Shown one piece after another: positions 1-37,912 of a stretch of DNA of 37,912 bases. The notes below the pieces were generated by a model, which made no database searches, was not told the origin of the DNA, and saw nothing but the letters and a program-made list of their open reading frames with translations. The stretch is from a virus, in IMG/VR virus record IMGVR_UViG_3300011440_000039, positions 1 through 37,912 of that record. One strand, given 5' to 3'. The position numbers and the translations under genes are program-made. Position 1 is the stretch's first letter, and the number at the start of each line of letters is the position of its first letter.

Positions 1-741
1 GAAACCAAGGGGCATCTGCCCTTCGCGCTGGTCGATACCAGGGCCATCGTCCTCTTATGCGAAGAGGTTGGCGACAAGCCGGTCATCGCCAACCAGCGGC
101 TCTCCGCGCTCAAGGCCCTATTCCGCTGGGCGTTCAAAGCCGGGGAGACCAAGGACAACCCAGCGAAGGCTGCCGAGCCGATCCCCTACCACAGCGACGG
201 CTTCCACACATGGACGCCTGAAGAGGTGAAGCAATATGAAGAACGCCATCCTGTGGGCACACGGGCCAGGCTCGCTATGGCGCTGCTGCTCCACACTGCG
301 GGTAGACGCGGAGACGCGGTACGTCTCGGGCCTCAACATTGCCGGCTGGGCAGAGTTCGCTTCACGCAGGCGAAAAACGAGCACAGGAAGCCGGTCACGG
401 TCGATCTACCCCTATCGCCCGATCTGGCAGCTATCATCGCGGCCACGCCTACCGGCCACCTCGCCTTCCTCGTGACGGAATACGGCAAGCCCTTCTCCAC
501 GAAGGGTTTTGGAAACAAGATGCGGGTGTGGTGCGACCAGGCGGGCCTGCCGCAGTGCTCCGCGCACGGGCTGCGCAAGGCGGCGGCAACGCGGCTCGCG
601 GAGGTCGGCGCCACGACGCAGGAGATCATGGCGGTGACGGGTCACCAAAGCCTGCGGCAGGTGGAGGTCTACACGAAGGCGGCGGCACGGCCGGGAATGG
701 CCGACAGCGCCATGGCAAAGCTAAAACGGGAACGGGGGTAG
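1..741 (+). CDS. int: Tyrosine recombinase/integrase, C-terminal part (5' end outside window)
   Basis: The reading frame is open from base 1, so the N-terminus lies before the window; about 246 residues are visible. They hold the end of the core-binding domain (NQRLSALKALFRWAFKAG) and the whole catalytic domain. Catalytic residues of the family can be placed: the first Arg in TAGRRGDAVRL, the HGLRK box (His-x-x-Arg), the GHQ box, and the nucleophile Tyr in VEVYTKAA. The stretch GFHTWTPEEVKQYEERHPVG is typical of integrases from alphaproteobacterial prophages. It would integrate and, with a directionality factor, excise the prophage. An ATG at 226 is internal to the conserved fold and is not the start. 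No attachment site could be placed. Confidence 0.93.
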   Translation, partial: ETKGHLPFALVDTRAIVLLCEEVGDKPVIANQRLSALKALFRWAFKAGETKDNPAKAAEPIPYHSDGFHTWTPEEVKQYEERHPVGTRARLAMALLLHTAGRRGDAVRLGPQHCRLGRVRFTQAKNEHRKPVTVDLPLSPDLAAIIAATPTGHLAFLVTEYGKPFSTKGFGNKMRVWCDQAGLPQCSAHGLRKAAATRLAEVGATTQEIMAVTGHQSLRQVEVYTKAAARPGMADSAMAKLKRERG

Positions 742-31816: not shown

Positions 31817-32342
31817 GGCCGTTCCCTCCTGCGCGGTTATGGGTTCTGTTTCGAGAGCCGTCCGGCGGCCCCGTCGAGGACTCGGCCGCGCGGCGAAACC
31901 AGTTGCGCCAGGTGGCAGCCCAGTCGCGTTTGAGGCCCTTTTCGCCGGGAGCCGCCAGGAAGTAGTCCACGAAGATGCTCGCTTCCCGCTCCGCCTGGGC
32001 TCTCGAAAGGCCCTCGGCCACCGCCGCGTCGAGGTTGGGCCGATAGTCGGGCGGAATCCGTCCGGCTCGCGCGCGCTCCACCCCGCTAGGGGTGGATGGA
32101 TGAGATAGAGGTTGAGTTTCTTTAGAGGGGTCTGGGGAGACTTTTCTTTTCTCAGGGGAAAGAGAAGGAGTGATATGTGTGATATGTGTGATATCACCAT
32201 TTCTCTTTGAATTCCGCCACTTAGCAGTAGCGGCGCGGCCCTTCGCGAGGCGCTCCTCCTCCATGATCTCGACAGCGTCGAGGAGCTGTTTCTCCGAAAC
32301 ACCGACCGCTCGCAGCGCCTTGAGGAGGCCGGCAACGTTCAT
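31674..32342 (-). CDS. Replication initiator-type protein (primosomal C-terminus)
   Basis: I take the ATG at 32342 as the start (222 residues, MNVAGLLKALRAVGVSEKQL). Residues 1-50 are a helical domain ending KGRAATAKWRNSKRNG. A linker with DITHITHIT and Pro/Ser-rich stretches follows. The C-terminal part, PDYRPNLDAAVAEGLSRAQA and FVDYFLAAPGEKGLKRDWAA then TWRNWFRR, matches the F-x-DY-x-x-A...K-x-DW-x-x-TWRNW signature of phage replication proteins. The last 60 residues share DNA with the following gene in another frame. Start overlaps the DnaA-like gene's stop by four bases. Confidence 0.75.
   Translation of the reverse strand: MNVAGLLKALRAVGVSEKQLLDAVEIMEEERLAKGRAATAKWRNSKRNGDITHITHITPSLSPEKRKVSPDPSKETQPLSHPSTPSGVERARAGRIPPDYRPNLDAAVAEGLSRAQAEREASIFVDYFLAAPGEKGLKRDWAATWRNWFRRAAESSTGPPDGSRNRTHNRAGGNGHVRQSGSQQAIEELDRRAAERAARRKAAGEGDFFSGETIDASYVRRR
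32171..32197 (-). repeat. 9-bp tandem repeat, three units
   Basis: TGATATGTG, TGATATGTG and TGATATCAC run head to tail (the last ending in the palindrome GTGATATCAC together with the preceding G) and encode the ITHITHIT linker. Nine-base units keep the frame, so copy-number change would only lengthen or shorten the linker. Confidence 0.75.
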
Positions 32343-32824
32343 GGCTTCCCCACCTTCGGCTTGATGCCGCGCGGCAGCGGCAGACCGTGCCGCTTCGCAT
32401 AAGCGCGGATGCCGTGGATCACCGTCGTGTGGTCGTAGCCGCCCAATACCGTGCCGATCTGTTGCAGCGTCAGCTTCGTCAGCAGCGCCATCTCGTAGGC
32501 AGCTTCCTGCCGGGCACGTGCAAACGGACGCTTGCGGGTGCGCGTCAGAAAACCTTTCAGCGTCAGCCCGTGCTTCCCGGCAACCCGCCGGCAGATCTCC
32601 CGGCCCGTCCACCGCAGATACTCGCGCCGCCTCGCTCGCACAGCGCGAAAATGCTCATGCTGCAGGGCAAACCGCTCGCACAACTTACGCTTGTCAGGGG
32701 CGGGCGGAGGCGGGGGCAAAGGCGATGGTTCCGGCTCCGGCTCCCTATGCACCTTCCAGCCAAAGGGTGGTGAGGCTGGGCGAGGCATAAGCCTGTGCGT
32801 GAGCGGACCCCTCGGCAGCACCAT
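32339..32824 (-). CDS. DnaA domain IV-like DNA-binding protein
   Basis: The start at 32824 overlaps the GcrA gene's stop (TGATG); the frame is open to 32881. In this 161-residue protein residues 20-45 are Pro-rich; residues 100-145 match the DNA-binding domain of DnaA: ARARQEAAYEMALLTKLTLQ, IGTVLGGYDHTTVIHGIRAY. GGYDHTTVIHG corresponds to the DnaA signature GGRDHTTV-x-HA. There is no AAA+ ATPase domain, so it cannot act as DnaA itself; it may recognise DnaA-box-like sites for phage replication or interfere with host initiation. Function beyond DNA binding is inference. Confidence 0.82.
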   Translation of the reverse strand: MVLPRGPLTHRLMPRPASPPFGWKVHREPEPEPSPLPPPPPAPDKRKLCERFALQHEHFRAVRARRREYLRWTGREICRRVAGKHGLTLKGFLTRTRKRPFARARQEAAYEMALLTKLTLQQIGTVLGGYDHTTVIHGIRAYAKRHGLPLPRGIKPKVGKP

Positions 32825-33273
32825 CAAGCCGCCACCTCCAGAGCCGAGCGCGGATAGACGCGGCGGTAATGCGACAGGCACCAGGACGCGCCGATCACCG
32901 TCTTCTCACCGCAATACAACACGACGTGCACATGCCTCGGATCGGCCTCGATCCAACGGCAGGAACGCGTCGTAAGCTCTTGAATGGGAATGTTCTTCAT
33001 AGGCGGGCGCAGGATTGCCTTCGGCAGCGCCGGCAGCTTGATCGGACGCGAGCCGCCACGCTTGTAAGCATTGACAGCGACGGACCATTGCTGCCCCGGC
33101 GTCAGGTTCGCCCGCTCGGTCTTCAGAAGCTTCAGCCGGGACAGCTTGCCCAGGATGGCGGAGCGCGTCGTGTTGAGCGCCAGGGCAATCTGCGAGGCGG
33201 GGACACCGTCCCGCCAGAGTTGCTCCATGAGCGCGATGCGTTCTGCCGGCCATGCGTTGGGACCGCTACTCAT
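32824..33273 (-). CDS. gcrA: GcrA-family cell-cycle regulator homologue
   Basis: The start at 33273 (149 residues, MSSGPNAWPAERIALMEQLW) is chosen because it gives the canonical GcrA N-terminus; the longer open frame to 33357 is not family-like. Residues 8-50 (AWPAERIALMEQLWRDG, ASQIALALNTTRSAILGKLS, RLKL) form the GcrA HTH. The C-terminus SCRWIEADPRHVHVVLYCGE and GASWCLSHYRRVY matches the family's Cys-rich sigma70-contact region. In alphaproteobacteria GcrA acts with CcrM GANTC methylation and sigma70. The phage copy could retune host transcription during lytic growth. Start overlaps the 50-residue gene's stop by eight bases. Confidence 0.88.
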   Translation of the reverse strand: MSSGPNAWPAERIALMEQLWRDGVPASQIALALNTTRSAILGKLSRLKLLKTERANLTPGQQWSVAVNAYKRGGSRPIKLPALPKAILRPPMKNIPIQELTTRSCRWIEADPRHVHVVLYCGEKTVIGASWCLSHYRRVYPRSALEVAA

Positions 33274-33418
33274 GATAGAGCCAGTACAGGACGGCACGGC
33301 GGATGCTGATGATGTCAATGCCAGTGCGGCAGGCAATCTCGCGGAGCAGCAGGCCACCGCGCTGGTAGCGATGGACGAGGCCCATCATCTCGTCCTGGGA
33401 GAGGATGTCGGGCATCAT
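33266..33418 (-). CDS. 50-residue HTH-like protein
   Basis: The frame starts at two adjacent ATGs (33418 and 33415) and reads MMPDILSQDEMMGLVHRYQR, then LLLREIACRTGIDIISIRRA and VLYWLYHE. The order helix, turn (REIACRTGID) and recognition helix (IISIRRAVLY) is a minimal homeodomain-like HTH, related in style to GcrA's own N-terminus. Its 3' end overlaps the gcrA ATG by eight bases, so the pair is translationally coupled. It overlaps the preceding stop by four bases. Probably a small regulator; no family name. Confidence 0.62.
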   Translation of the reverse strand: MMPDILSQDEMMGLVHRYQRGGLLLREIACRTGIDIISIRRAVLYWLYHE

Positions 33419-34731: not shown

Positions 34732-34814
34732 CTCCCAACGAAATTGGGAGCGCTCCCAACGATAGGAATTTTATCTCCCAACGGAATTGGGAGCGCCGCC
34801 GTCGCACTCCCAAC
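34732..34814. promoter_or_regulatory. CTCCCAA/TTGGGAG operator or hairpin array
   Basis: Two near-identical 19-base inverted repeats, CTCCCAACGAAATTGGGAG (34732-34750) and CTCCCAACGGAATTGGGAG (34775-34793), lie 43 bp apart with two further half-sites at 34753-34761 and 34807-34814. TAAAAT on the - strand (34768-34773) could be a -10 element. The array lies between the Cro-like gene and the first early gene and overlaps the latter's ribosome binding site. Confidence 0.75.
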
Positions 34815-34840
34815 CGCGCGCTGGCATGGCTCAGCCATGA

Positions 34841-35059
34841 TCACGCTACAGCCTCCGAGTTCGGGTAAAGGTCCGGCCGCAATTCATGCCGCGAAACACC
34901 GGTTACCCGTTCAACATCGAGCACGCGCTCGGCTGGCACGCGTCGCTCTTCCCACCGCAACACGGTCGTCTTGTTCACACCAAAAGATGTGGCAAGCGTT
35001 TCAAGGCTTAACGCAGCCTCTCGCCGAAATCGGCGAAGCGGTTTCACGGGGGGCGTCAT
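34841..35059 (-). CDS. Cro-like HTH regulator
   Basis: The start is at 35059 (72 residues, MTPPVKPLRRFRREAALSLE). The HTH is LETLATSFGVNKTTVLRWEE, followed by the typical tail RVPAERVLDVERVTGVSRHE and LRPDLYP found in YdaS/Cro-type phage regulators. No Shine-Dalgarno precedes the ATG, and the -10 of its promoter ends seven bases before it, so the mRNA is probably leaderless. It diverges from the repressor gene and opens the leftward early transcript. Confidence 0.8.
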   Translation of the reverse strand: MTPPVKPLRRFRREAALSLETLATSFGVNKTTVLRWEERRVPAERVLDVERVTGVSRHELRPDLYPNSEAVA

Positions 35060-35065
35060 GACCGA

Positions 35066-35094
35066 AGTGTTGCAGAACTTGCAACCATGGTCAA
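35066..35094 (-). promoter_or_regulatory. Leftward early promoter with operator O1 in spacer
   Basis: On the - strand TTGACC (35089-35094), a 17-base spacer and AACACT (35066-35071). The palindrome GTTGCAGAACTTGCAAC (35069-35085 on the + strand, operator O1) fills most of the spacer and part of the -10, so repressor binding would block RNA polymerase. Confidence 0.8.
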
Positions 35095-35153
35095 GGCGAC
35101 GCATTGCAGGCTTCGCTAACGATCTTGATCAGCCGAGGTGCCTACCGTTGCAT

Positions 35154-35480
35154 ATGGCTGCGACGGACTCACCCAACGGCAAAGATCGAGCTTCCCGTAA
35201 GCATTTCATTCCCGAATATGCTCGGCGGAAGCCGATCACACAGGCCGGTATCGCGCGCGAAACAGGCGCGGACAAGGGATTGGTCAGCCGCTGGTTTTCC
35301 GGCACGACTCCGCAGGATAAGTACCTTGACGCCCTAGTGAGGCTGTTCGAATTGTCAGATCGGAGCGCACTGTTCCGACACCCGGATGAGGAGTGGCTCG
35401 TGCAATTCTCGCGCAGCCTCTCCTCGGAGGACGAAAGACAGCGGATGCGAACGCTCCTTGGTGCAGCCTTCCAAAAATAG
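35154..35480 (+). CDS. XRE-family phage repressor
   Basis: I take the ATG at 35154 (108 residues, MAATDSPNGKDRASRKHFIP) as the start. The HTH is ITQAGIARETGADKGLVSRW followed by FSGTTPQDKYLDALVRLFEL, a good XRE domain; the C-terminal region (WLVQFSRSLSSEDERQRMRT) is helical and probably dimerises. There is no LexA-type peptidase part, so induction is not by RecA-assisted autocleavage. A longer start at 35058 would run through O1 and is unlikely. It is flanked by three copies of one palindrome, its probable operators, and should maintain lysogeny. Confidence 0.8.
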   Translation: MAATDSPNGKDRASRKHFIPEYARRKPITQAGIARETGADKGLVSRWFSGTTPQDKYLDALVRLFELSDRSALFRHPDEEWLVQFSRSLSSEDERQRMRTLLGAAFQK

Positions 35481-35496
35481 TTGCACAAAATGCAAG
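35480..35496. promoter_or_regulatory. Operator O2
   Basis: GTTGCACAAAATGCAAG matches the GTTGCA-N5-TGCAAC palindrome except in its last base. It begins at the last base of the repressor stop codon and ends eight bases before the rightward promoter's -35, so it could support cooperative binding with O3, 34 bp away start to start. Confidence 0.75.
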
Positions 35497-35504
35497 CCTG
35501 CGTC

Positions 35505-35533
35505 TTGACCGCCGTTGCATAGAGTGCAACCCT
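35505..35533 (+). promoter_or_regulatory. Rightward early promoter with operator O3 in spacer
   Basis: TTGACC (35505-35510), a 17-base spacer and AACCCT (35528-35533). GTTGCATAGAGTGCAAC (35514-35530, O3), a perfect 6-bp-arm palindrome, sits in the spacer and touches the -10, the same layout as the leftward promoter. It would drive the leader, HNH and helicase genes. Confidence 0.8.
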
Positions 35534-35558
35534 GTCCGCTACCGTCAAGGAGCGGGCG

Positions 35559-35591
35559 ATGCACAGAAGCCTTACAAAATTTGCCGGCTGA
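35559..35591 (+). CDS. 10-residue leader peptide (putative)
   Basis: The frame reads MHRSLTKFAG with a strong AAGGAG seven bases before its ATG. Its stop lies four bases before the GTG start of the HNH gene, which has no good ribosome binding site of its own, so the leader may feed ribosomes to HNH by reinitiation. Alternatively the ATG was the original HNH start and a frame change separated them. Confidence 0.5.
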   Translation: MHRSLTKFAG

Positions 35592-35595
35592 GTAA

Positions 35596-35847
35596 GTGCC
35601 AAAGCGATTGGCAACTTCGACTGAGCGGACGGCTCTTTTCCTTTTGCAAGATGGACGATGCGCCATTTGTGGGGCCGATCTGTCCGACCAGCCATACGAG
35701 GCCGACCACATCGTCGAGTTCAGCGCGCGAGGAGCGACAGAATTATGGAATCTGCAACTGCTCTGCCTTCCCTGTCATTCGGAAAAGAACCGCGTGTCGG
35801 CCAATTACAGGTCTTGCAAGCGCTCAAAACGCACCGAGAGCGACTGA
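35596..35847 (+). CDS. HNH endonuclease-type protein
   Basis: The 83-residue protein starts at GTG 35596. Zinc-binding and catalytic residues are C22 and C25 (GRCAICGADL), D37-H38 (EADHIVEFSARGATEL), N52 in WNLQLLC, and C57/C60/H61 (CLPCHSEKN), a complete HNH core. The residues after position 65 (RVSANYRSCKRSKRTES) are likely non-conserved, because the same DNA in the -1 frame encodes the Q-motif region of the helicase. HNH domains occur fused to SF2 helicases elsewhere; here the two are in overlapping frames. Probably a DNA-cleaving or DNA-binding partner of the helicase. Confidence 0.78.
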   Translation: MPKRLATSTERTALFLLQDGRCAICGADLSDQPYEADHIVEFSARGATELWNLQLLCLPCHSEKNRVSANYRSCKRSKRTESD

Positions 35848-37583
35848 GCGCAAAACTCCCAACCGGTTATGGGAAAACCTACACCTGCTGCATGGTCTAT
35901 TCCACGTTGCAGCATGCCGGTCGCGTAACGAGGCTTCTCGTCGTTTTCCCTACGGATGCGCAACTTGAACAATTCATGGCGGATGCGCCACGGGAAGACC
36001 TGATCAACGCGCGGGTTCAGGGGTCGTATAAGATCAACGACATCCGCTCTGCAGGCGTATACGCGCTGAAGGATCATCGAACCAACGCTGCACAGATATA
36101 CGTTATCACAATTCAATCCCTCATCGCCAACAAGGGATCGATGATCGTCACTGATCTTCTACAACAGGGGCAGTGGATGATCTGCGTTGACGAGCACCAT
36201 CATTATGGCGAGGAAAAAACTTGGGGCAAGGCGGTCATCAAACTGAATCGCGCGTTTCTGCTGGTGATGAGCGCAACGCCACATCGTCCAACCGCAGATG
36301 GAGCTTTTGGTCAGCCCGATGTCATCGTTACCTATGAGGAAGCGTACAAGCAGGGAGCGGTCAAGGAACTCTCCGGACACGCCTATCACTACATGCTCGA
36401 TCTGGAGGACGAGGACGGGAAGCTTCATCGCTACACGACGCAGGAGCTTGCGGAGGAAGCGGGAGGTGAAGACCCCGACAAGATCGAGAAGCTCCGCATT
36501 CAGCGCAAGATGCGGTGGACGCCGAAATACGTCTGGCCGCTGATCTCGATCCCGATCGACCGGATGCTGCAAGAACGCCTGACCAGTGGATTCCCGCTTC
36601 AGGTTCTCATTACCGCAATGTGCGTGTCACACGCCGAATACGTCTGCAATCAGCTCCGCGACCTGTATCCCGAATTGCGGATCGATTGGGTCGGGACTGG
36701 CGAGTATGGGCGGACGAAGGAAGAAAACGATGCGGTCCTCGCACGGTTTTGCCCACCCAAGAAGGAAGGCATGGACGGGAAGGTCCGCAGGCCAGACCCG
36801 GCGCTCGACGTTCTCGTTCACGTCGGCTTGGCTGGTGAGGGTCTCGACTCGATCTTCGTGAGCGAGGTCGTTCATCTGACAAGCGCCTCGCTCTGCAATC
36901 GCGTCAATCAGATCAATGGGCGCGCTGCCCGCTTCCTCTCCGGCGTGCGAGCGAACATCAATTTCGACGCATCAAGCGAGTTCGCCACCCAAGGCTATCT
37001 TGGCTCCGCAATCATGCAGGCCATGGATTTCCTGCCTCCAAAGACAACCGACAAGCCTCCTGATCCGGATCCGGATTTGCCGCCCGAGCCACCGGAGAAC
37101 CCAACCATCCGCATCTTCGACATTGAATTTCAAGGCGTCGATAGCGGCGATATCGGCGTGCAGCGGATGGCGCGCCTGATCAGGGAAGATGCGCCGACTC
37201 GTTATGACTGGCACGCGATGGAGACCGACGGGGATCATCCCGATTGGCAGCAGGTGATCGGCTTCTACAAGAAGATGCGTGAGATCGAGGCGGAGCAGCA
37301 GAACGAGAAGGCCATCATCCAACAGTGGATGGATAATGTTCAACTGTTGCTGCAAAGGGTGACCGGCCTTGCGGTTAAGGTCATGACCCGAAAGGGCTCG
37401 TATATCGACAACCGGACGCCGGGGCTCATCAAGAAGGTCATCAACGGGCGAAAGAAAAAACTGCTCGGTGAACTCAACCAAGACAACCGCGACCTGGATG
37501 TAGCAAAGCGTCACTACGACTGGCTGATCCAGTTGGACCGTCAGATCCGCGCAGAAGGAATCCCGAAATGGCTGGATTCCTAG
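35745..37583 (+). CDS. SF2 DEAD/DEAH-type helicase
   Basis: The start is at 35745 (612 residues), chosen because AGGAG lies ten bases before it and the helicase begins soon after; the frame opens at 35658. Motifs: PRVGQLQVLQAL (R-x-x-Q, residue about 20), LPTGYGKT (Walker A, about 38-45), ICVDEHHHYGE (motif II, DEHH, about 149), LVMSATPHR (motif III), LLVVFPTDAQLEQF (Ia), and RVNQINGRAARF (motif VI). The C-terminal 200 residues (IRIFDIEFQGVDSGDIGVQR ... QNEKAIIQQWMDNVQLLLQR) are helical and unrecognised. It overlaps HNH by 103 bases. Likely an early replication, recombination or DNA-defence function; the exact role is not known. Confidence 0.85.
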   Translation: MESATALPSLSFGKEPRVGQLQVLQALKTHRERLSAKLPTGYGKTYTCCMVYSTLQHAGRVTRLLVVFPTDAQLEQFMADAPREDLINARVQGSYKINDIRSAGVYALKDHRTNAAQIYVITIQSLIANKGSMIVTDLLQQGQWMICVDEHHHYGEEKTWGKAVIKLNRAFLLVMSATPHRPTADGAFGQPDVIVTYEEAYKQGAVKELSGHAYHYMLDLEDEDGKLHRYTTQELAEEAGGEDPDKIEKLRIQRKMRWTPKYVWPLISIPIDRMLQERLTSGFPLQVLITAMCVSHAEYVCNQLRDLYPELRIDWVGTGEYGRTKEENDAVLARFCPPKKEGMDGKVRRPDPALDVLVHVGLAGEGLDSIFVSEVVHLTSASLCNRVNQINGRAARFLSGVRANINFDASSEFATQGYLGSAIMQAMDFLPPKTTDKPPDPDPDLPPEPPENPTIRIFDIEFQGVDSGDIGVQRMARLIREDAPTRYDWHAMETDGDHPDWQQVIGFYKKMREIEAEQQNEKAIIQQWMDNVQLLLQRVTGLAVKVMTRKGSYIDNRTPGLIKKVINGRKKKLLGELNQDNRDLDVAKRHYDWLIQLDRQIRAEGIPKWLDS

Positions 37584-37912
37584 TTGATCGCGGACCCATC
37601 GCGGCGACCGACCGCCTTCGGGATGTGCCGAAAGCGAAATGGCACGATCTCATGATTGCTCGCCGTGCGTTCCTCTCGACGCATCTCTCTTACGATTGCC
37701 GGTGCCTCATCGAGTTTGTCGATGACGCGAAGCTGATGTTCAAGCCGCTTGGGTTCGAAACGCCGGAAACCATGATCCGAGAAGGCTACGGCCTGGAGCC
37801 GGCCGAGATCGAGATCGCCGTGGAGTGGCTGCGGCTCAACCCGCCGGCCGAGCCGCTGTCGATGGCTATGGCAATCGAGTTGGGCAAGCAGGGCCGGCCT
37901 CCCGACGCACCA
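37568..37912 (+). CDS. Hypothetical prophage protein, 3' end outside window
   Basis: The ATG at 37568 overlaps the helicase stop by 16 bases; 115 residues are visible and the frame is open at the window end. It starts MAGFLVDRGPIAATDRLRDV and has the block ETMIREGYGLEPAEIEIAVE then WLRLNPPAEPLSMAMAIELG and KQGRPPD, a pattern recurring in early regions of alphaproteobacterial prophages. No known activity. Coupling to the helicase places it in the same rightward early operon. Confidence 0.75.
   Translation, partial: MAGFLVDRGPIAATDRLRDVPKAKWHDLMIARRAFLSTHLSYDCRCLIEFVDDAKLMFKPLGFETPETMIREGYGLEPAEIEIAVEWLRLNPPAEPLSMAMAIELGKQGRPPDAP

Follow-up and report, generated by a model that had tools for sequence, protein, structure and literature searches.

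How a nuclease and a helicase that share part of their coding DNA are made, and what they might do together, is the question raised by the right end of a virus record in IMG/VR (IMGVR_UViG_3300011440_000039), a linear stretch of 37,912 bases that was analyzed whole and is called the window here. The minus strand carries phage genes of the head and tail type, replication-type genes (GcrA, DnaA-C-type and VRR-NUC) are also present in the window, and the operon in question lies on the plus strand at the right end. Open reading frames and Pfam matches confirm what an earlier note had read from the letters: an HNH nuclease gene (35596..35847, 83 aa, PF01844 E 4e-10) and an SF2 helicase gene (35745..37583, 612 aa, PF04851 E 2e-20), with the helicase in the -1 frame relative to HNH and a dual-coding overlap of 103 nt (35745..35847, HNH stop included). 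The HNH gene begins with GTG directly after an in-frame TAA. The helicase ATG (35745..35747) is embedded in the HNH codons TTA TGG (Leu-Trp), behind a Shine-Dalgarno-like GAGGAG (35729..35734) that also lies within HNH codons. Also present, as the note had stated, is a leader ORF of 10 codons ahead of HNH (MHRSLTKFAG, 35559..35591, from ATG 35559 to TGA 35591, with AAGGAG 5′ of it), and no such leader was seen upstream of HNH in the relatives described below. A third gene (37568..37912), overlapping the helicase stop by 16 nt, is cut by the end of the record. All of these genes are on the plus strand. At the left end, window positions 226-741 hold an integrase gene fragment (phrog_1 E 2.7e-19, C-terminal half matched), consistent with a temperate phage or a prophage cut near an end, and phage-borne GcrA-like and DnaA C-terminal-like genes at 32824-33357 and 32339-32881 point to an alphaproteobacterial host.

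Two regulator genes stand upstream of the operon. The one on the plus strand (35058..35480, with an uncertain start at either ATG 35058 or ATG 35154) has weak HTH_31/HTH_3 matches (E 0.005-0.02, below the curated cut-offs) and matches the phrog_8 transcriptional regulators with E 2e-4. The divergent gene on the minus strand (34841..35104) is a YdaS/Cro-like HTH regulator, with PF15943 YdaS above its cut-off (E 1.3e-10) and the phrog_35 transcriptional repressor at E 3.7e-9. The 37.9 kb of the window contain exactly three copies of the palindrome TTGCA-N5-TGCAA, at 35070..35084, 35481..35495 and 35515..35529, compared with an expectation of 0.01, and all three copies fall within this regulatory stretch. 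Since they sit where operators of both divergent promoters would be expected, the operon is plausibly under repressor control, and the earlier description of the operon as repressor-controlled gains support from them. The adjacent HTH repressor would probably switch the operon through these three putative operators. Neither a consensus sigma-70 promoter nor a terminator was found in 34800-35760, and the window has no Rfam match.

The identity of both enzymes is clear from their family matches. The HNH protein scores 40.1 bits against PF01844 (curated cut-off 21.4 bits) and carries the D-H...N...H residues together with the C-x2-C pairs; D37, H38, N52 and H61 as well as C22, C25 and C60 are invariant in 27 sequences, and C57 is nearly so. 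Its score against PF02945 Endonuclease_7 is 17.5 bits, under the cut-off of 23.6 for this family. Compared with solved structures, the HNH profile matches ZRANB3 best (E 2.7e-9), with McrA, IscB and endonuclease VII (E 7e-4) also found, and the ZRANB3 HNH domain is again among the top fold matches. The helicase scores 73.8 bits against ResIII (cut-off 22.5) and has a DEAD match with E 1.5e-9. Walker A, DExH, SAT and QxxGRxxR (motif VI) are invariant in 25 complete helicases, which places the family in SF2. With catalytic residues and helicase motifs kept in this way, both proteins are predicted to be active enzymes. The helicase model (pLDDT 84.9) has two RecA-like domains, and its nearest folds by VIA-align are RadD (Z 26.5), Mfd (26.4) and FANCM (25.0), with XPB and RIG-I also near. 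The RadD match has an rmsd of 3.9-4.1 over about 330 residues at 18-19% identity and leaves out the C-terminal third of the model. Against solved structures the helicase profile matches RadD with E 1.5e-5, below LGP2 and others, and mainly in the ATPase core. Because SF2 folds resemble one another, ‘RadD-like’ names the nearest neighbor and not a function.

Relatives were collected from IMG/VR contigs with a motif-restricted query followed by profiles made from its matches. The first profile scan gave 31 loci and the second the same contigs, and the helicase family is encoded on 30 IMG/VR contigs besides the window. One of the 31 loci (L045:4334-7051) was set aside and ruled out as a family member: its SF2 helicase, from a phage, is distant, has an apparent intein in its C-terminal half and is not accompanied by an HNH gene. 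Another (L030) is without its 5′ end. A single-sequence helicase scan of the viral contigs gave 0 matches, as the peptide patterns it used are not conserved. In 84,980 prokaryotic species genomes, two scans gave no confirmed relative; because they rely on short peptide patterns, they might miss a cellular copy that has diverged very far, although nearly identical patterns retrieved the 31 viral loci. Searches of phage records with tblastn gave nothing for the helicases of the window and of L036, and only distant SF2 helicases for that of L043. Plasmid records gave only SF2 helicases of 23-25% identity, with no HNH gene in the two of these loci that were inspected. Two proteins of uncultured Caudovirales phages in BFVD (A0A6J5NAD6 and A0A6J5N952) are 40-45% identical to the helicase and evidently belong to the same family; both are catalog entries, and the tables compared describe neither a function nor an HNH overlap for them. 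In one contig shared by two loci (L010:6705-6707; L037), an otherwise intact helicase gene has a single in-frame TAA (FG-stop-P, where the window reads FGQP), which could be a nonsense change, a sequencing error or stop readthrough.

All 29 relatives with a visible helicase 5′ end have the -1-frame HNH/helicase overlap, as does the window, with a length of 52-106 nt that is always 1 modulo 3, and it is retained at helicase identities to the window of 25-57%. No fused or separated arrangement and no helicase of this family lacking HNH was seen among these loci. Such agreement greatly exceeds what chance would give: all 29 loci match the window in frame, and each has a start codon at the HNH motif. 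The earlier reading of the two overlapping genes as a conserved pair, set in one operon next to genes of the repressor type, is supported. The two frames divide the shared DNA between them: HNH conservation runs to K64, whose codon sits at helicase residue 14, and helicase conservation starts at R17 (R17-x-G-Q), where the HNH tail is free. The structure models agree, with a mean pLDDT of 54 for helicase residues 1-10 and values of 45-57 for the last HNH residues, so each frame carries its constraint mostly in the part that the other leaves free. Outside the overlap the two proteins co-diverge (Spearman 0.475, 0 of 5000 permutations). The two genes are probably linked in translation.

What holds the helicase start in place can be read at the codon level. 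The HNH catalytic motif (..G-x-T-E-L|W-N-L-Q..) contains the ATG, which arises where an A-ending codon meets TGG or TGY. This combination is present in all 26 non-redundant loci, with six different amino acids (L, I, T, K, S and Q) encoded at the site. Multiplied over the 26 sites, the chances of an A-ending codon, taken from each helicase gene's own codon usage, come to about 10^-21.7, a figure whose true strength is lowered by the kinship among the loci. In class A, comprising the window and 16 non-redundant loci, an A-ending codon and Trp TGG make the start (TTA TGG, CTA TGG, ATA TGG or ACA TGG, for example). All 17 real sequences have it, whereas 400 synonymous randomisations retain on average 2.45 of the 17 and never more than 8, and the anti-Shine-Dalgarno duplex is likewise stronger than in synonymous randomisations (p 0.0025). 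Class B (L023, L025-L029, L031 and near-copies) no longer has the Trp, and its ATG is found 18 nt further 3′, at CTA/TTA TGT (Leu-Cys). Class C (L042 and L043) starts 27 nt 3′ of the class A position, at CAA/AAA TGY (Cys-His), and an AAGGAG precedes this ATG by 10 nt. Each of these two classes forms one strongly supported branch of the helicase tree, which means that the start site has moved at least twice, and each relocated start is again an ATG from an A-ending codon, still within the HNH gene.

When the A was left free in a pattern scan, seven stretches were retrieved. In the five that have a helicase, the base before TGG is always A; the other two are unrelated HNH genes with no helicase, in which the codons there are GAT and CAT and the -1 frame stays open for only 34 and 19 codons. 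A Shine-Dalgarno-like GGAG stands ahead of the helicase ATG in most lineages, and the class B helicase starts have a weak match only (AGG). In three loci the helicase frame is closed by a stop just upstream of the ATG (ending 3 nt before it in L015 and L037, and 9 nt before it in L022). Folding predictions did not consistently place the helicase start in RNA structure; it looks clearly paired only in L020-L022, L028 and L031. As a separate observation, the HNH starts of class B (L023, L025, L027-L029 and L031) are without a Shine-Dalgarno sequence, and about 10-35 nt upstream of these ATGs there is a similar stretch, ggcggcgc or gcggcgc, which is hairpin-like in several.

The start of the second gene is thus conserved beyond the coding needs of the first. 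Judged by these sequence patterns, it is very probable that the two are separate proteins and that the helicase is made by internal initiation on the HNH message. One operon would then yield both enzymes, with a third, HTH-like protein encoded behind them. Homologues of the third gene lie directly 3′ of the helicase in 24 loci, window included. The copy in L042 has a resolvase-type HTH (HTH_7 E 1.8e-6); the window copy, cut by the record end, and the L002 copy gave no family match.

As for function, neighboring genes in many loci encode YqaJ, RecT, ERF, RecE-like and RusA proteins, primases and DnaB. Together with the helicase fold and the HNH profile, these neighbors suggest a two-subunit helicase-nuclease for branched DNA in phage recombination. 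The HNH protein would be the structure-specific nuclease and the helicase the DNA translocase, acting jointly on branched phage DNA such as recombination intermediates and stalled forks, either in the manner of endonuclease VII and UvsW in T4 or like the HNH and SNF2 motor in the single ZRANB3 chain. We give this branched-DNA role about an even chance. In one locus (L002) a RuvC-like resolvase is encoded nearby, which offers a second candidate resolvase besides HNH. The same locus has, just upstream of HNH (L002:4952-5356), a 134-aa protein that by eye is GapR/DUF2312-like and has no family match.

Helicase-nuclease pairs are common in defense, and the pair could instead be a defense or superinfection-exclusion module that the phage carries beside its repressor, as the earlier note had considered. 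The operon does sit after a regulator gene in the window, and PADLOC gave weak matches to PbeA, DpdF and PtuB. These matches are limited to the shared nuclease or ATPase core, and none is a full-length match to a system's protein set. A defense module would be expected to spread through cellular genomes, so the finding of no homologue in two scans of 84,980 prokaryotic species genomes, and of no close one in phage or plasmid records, argues against a mobile one. The recombination and replication neighbors in many loci also speak for another role, and we consider the defense reading unlikely.

A second alternative holds that the genes have no functional link and that their overlap reflects genome compression or an irreversible ancestral accident. 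Overlaps are common in compact genomes, and long ones, once formed, would be hard to resolve. However, here the start moved twice and yet stayed within the overlap, and no member of the helicase family was seen without HNH. In addition, most prokaryotic overlaps are shorter than 30 bp (more than 80% of them in PMC12548453, where coupling drops as the overlap lengthens), and long ones appear to be selected against (PMC12548453, PMC3887535). An absence of any link is therefore improbable.

More doubtful still is the proposal of a split HNH-helicase fusion that programmed -1 ribosomal frameshifting rejoins into one chain. The helicase frame is indeed -1, A-rich codons (GAA AAG, GAA AAA) occur at the crossing point in many loci, and single-chain enzymes with HNH and a motor exist, for example ZRANB3 (PMC5481773). 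The GGAAAAG at 35781, suggested earlier as a weak slippery site, is present, but it does not have the canonical X XXY YYZ form and no such site is conserved in the relatives. A formal heptamer of this form is found in the HNH frame in only 5 of the 26 loci, leaving 21 without one; the five are at differing positions, and two of them are AAAGGGA ahead of the helicase start. No slippery heptamer is conserved in the overlap, and the ATG, for which frameshifting has no need, is under selection at the codon level, which argues against frameshifting. The first ten helicase residues are of low confidence in the model (the pLDDT of 54 given above). The idea of a fusion split by a frame change also fails, since the relatives all have two ORFs with the same overlap and none is fused, an outcome that had been named beforehand as one that would refute it. 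Although many small HNH genes that stand alone encode homing enzymes and other HNH_3-type genes lie nearby in some loci, a homing endonuclease inserted at the 5′ end of the helicase gene is hardly credible here, as HNH is there, in one fixed arrangement, wherever the 5′ end can be seen, no HNH-less helicase of the family was seen, and co-divergence outside the overlap speaks against a roaming HNH.

Taken as a whole, the best explanation, which we hold to be somewhat better than evenly likely, is a gene pair of uncultured phages with internal initiation of the helicase, in an operon probably switched by a repressor, whose products would act jointly on branched DNA. The placement of the motor's ribosome binding site and start inside the catalytic motif of the nuclease might also fix the stoichiometry or co-translational assembly of the two as subunits of a phage-specific enzyme, a tentative suggestion that we rate as rather unlikely; if true, the loss or re-pairing of either gene would break the other. 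Out-of-frame overlaps exceeding about 60 nt are commonly dismissed as probable annotation errors, and those above 59 bp were excluded from one large survey as likely misannotation (PMC3887535). The codon-level statistics show that this one is real and long-lived, and automatic annotation is likely to shorten or lose one of the two genes. No account of the HNH/helicase pair was found in the literature searched. As an example of coding in two frames across a catalytic motif the locus is clear and open to experiment, and it belongs to an undescribed phage helicase-nuclease-HTH cassette that was not found in the cellular genomes searched.

To our knowledge, the genes for T4 endonuclease VII and UvsW do not overlap, and we know of no HNH partner gene at RadD (YejH) loci. 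A comparison in gene arrangement is the MS2 coat/lysis pair (-50 nt overlap, cited in PMC12548453), in which the downstream start is also inside the upstream gene and out of frame. MS2 differs in being an RNA phage with regulation by RNA structure, whereas for the phage pair no consistent sequestering of the start is predicted and the start lies in a catalytic motif. Among proteins with a similar motor, the bacterial SF2 protein RadD accelerates RecA strand exchange (PMC8887467). Human ZRANB3 (5mkw), an ATP-dependent endonuclease at replication forks, joins HNH to an SF2 ATPase and acts on forked DNA (PMC5481773). Unlike the phage pair, it is a single chain with a C-terminal HNH, a SNF2-type motor and PCNA motifs, while the phage proteins come from two ORFs with HNH first and a motor nearer to RadD, Mfd and FANCM. 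Further parallels among phages are T4 endonuclease VII with UvsW and the T5 branch-migration protein D10 (PMC5180179), where a phage branch nuclease and an SF2 branch-migration helicase are found, as is proposed for the pair described here.
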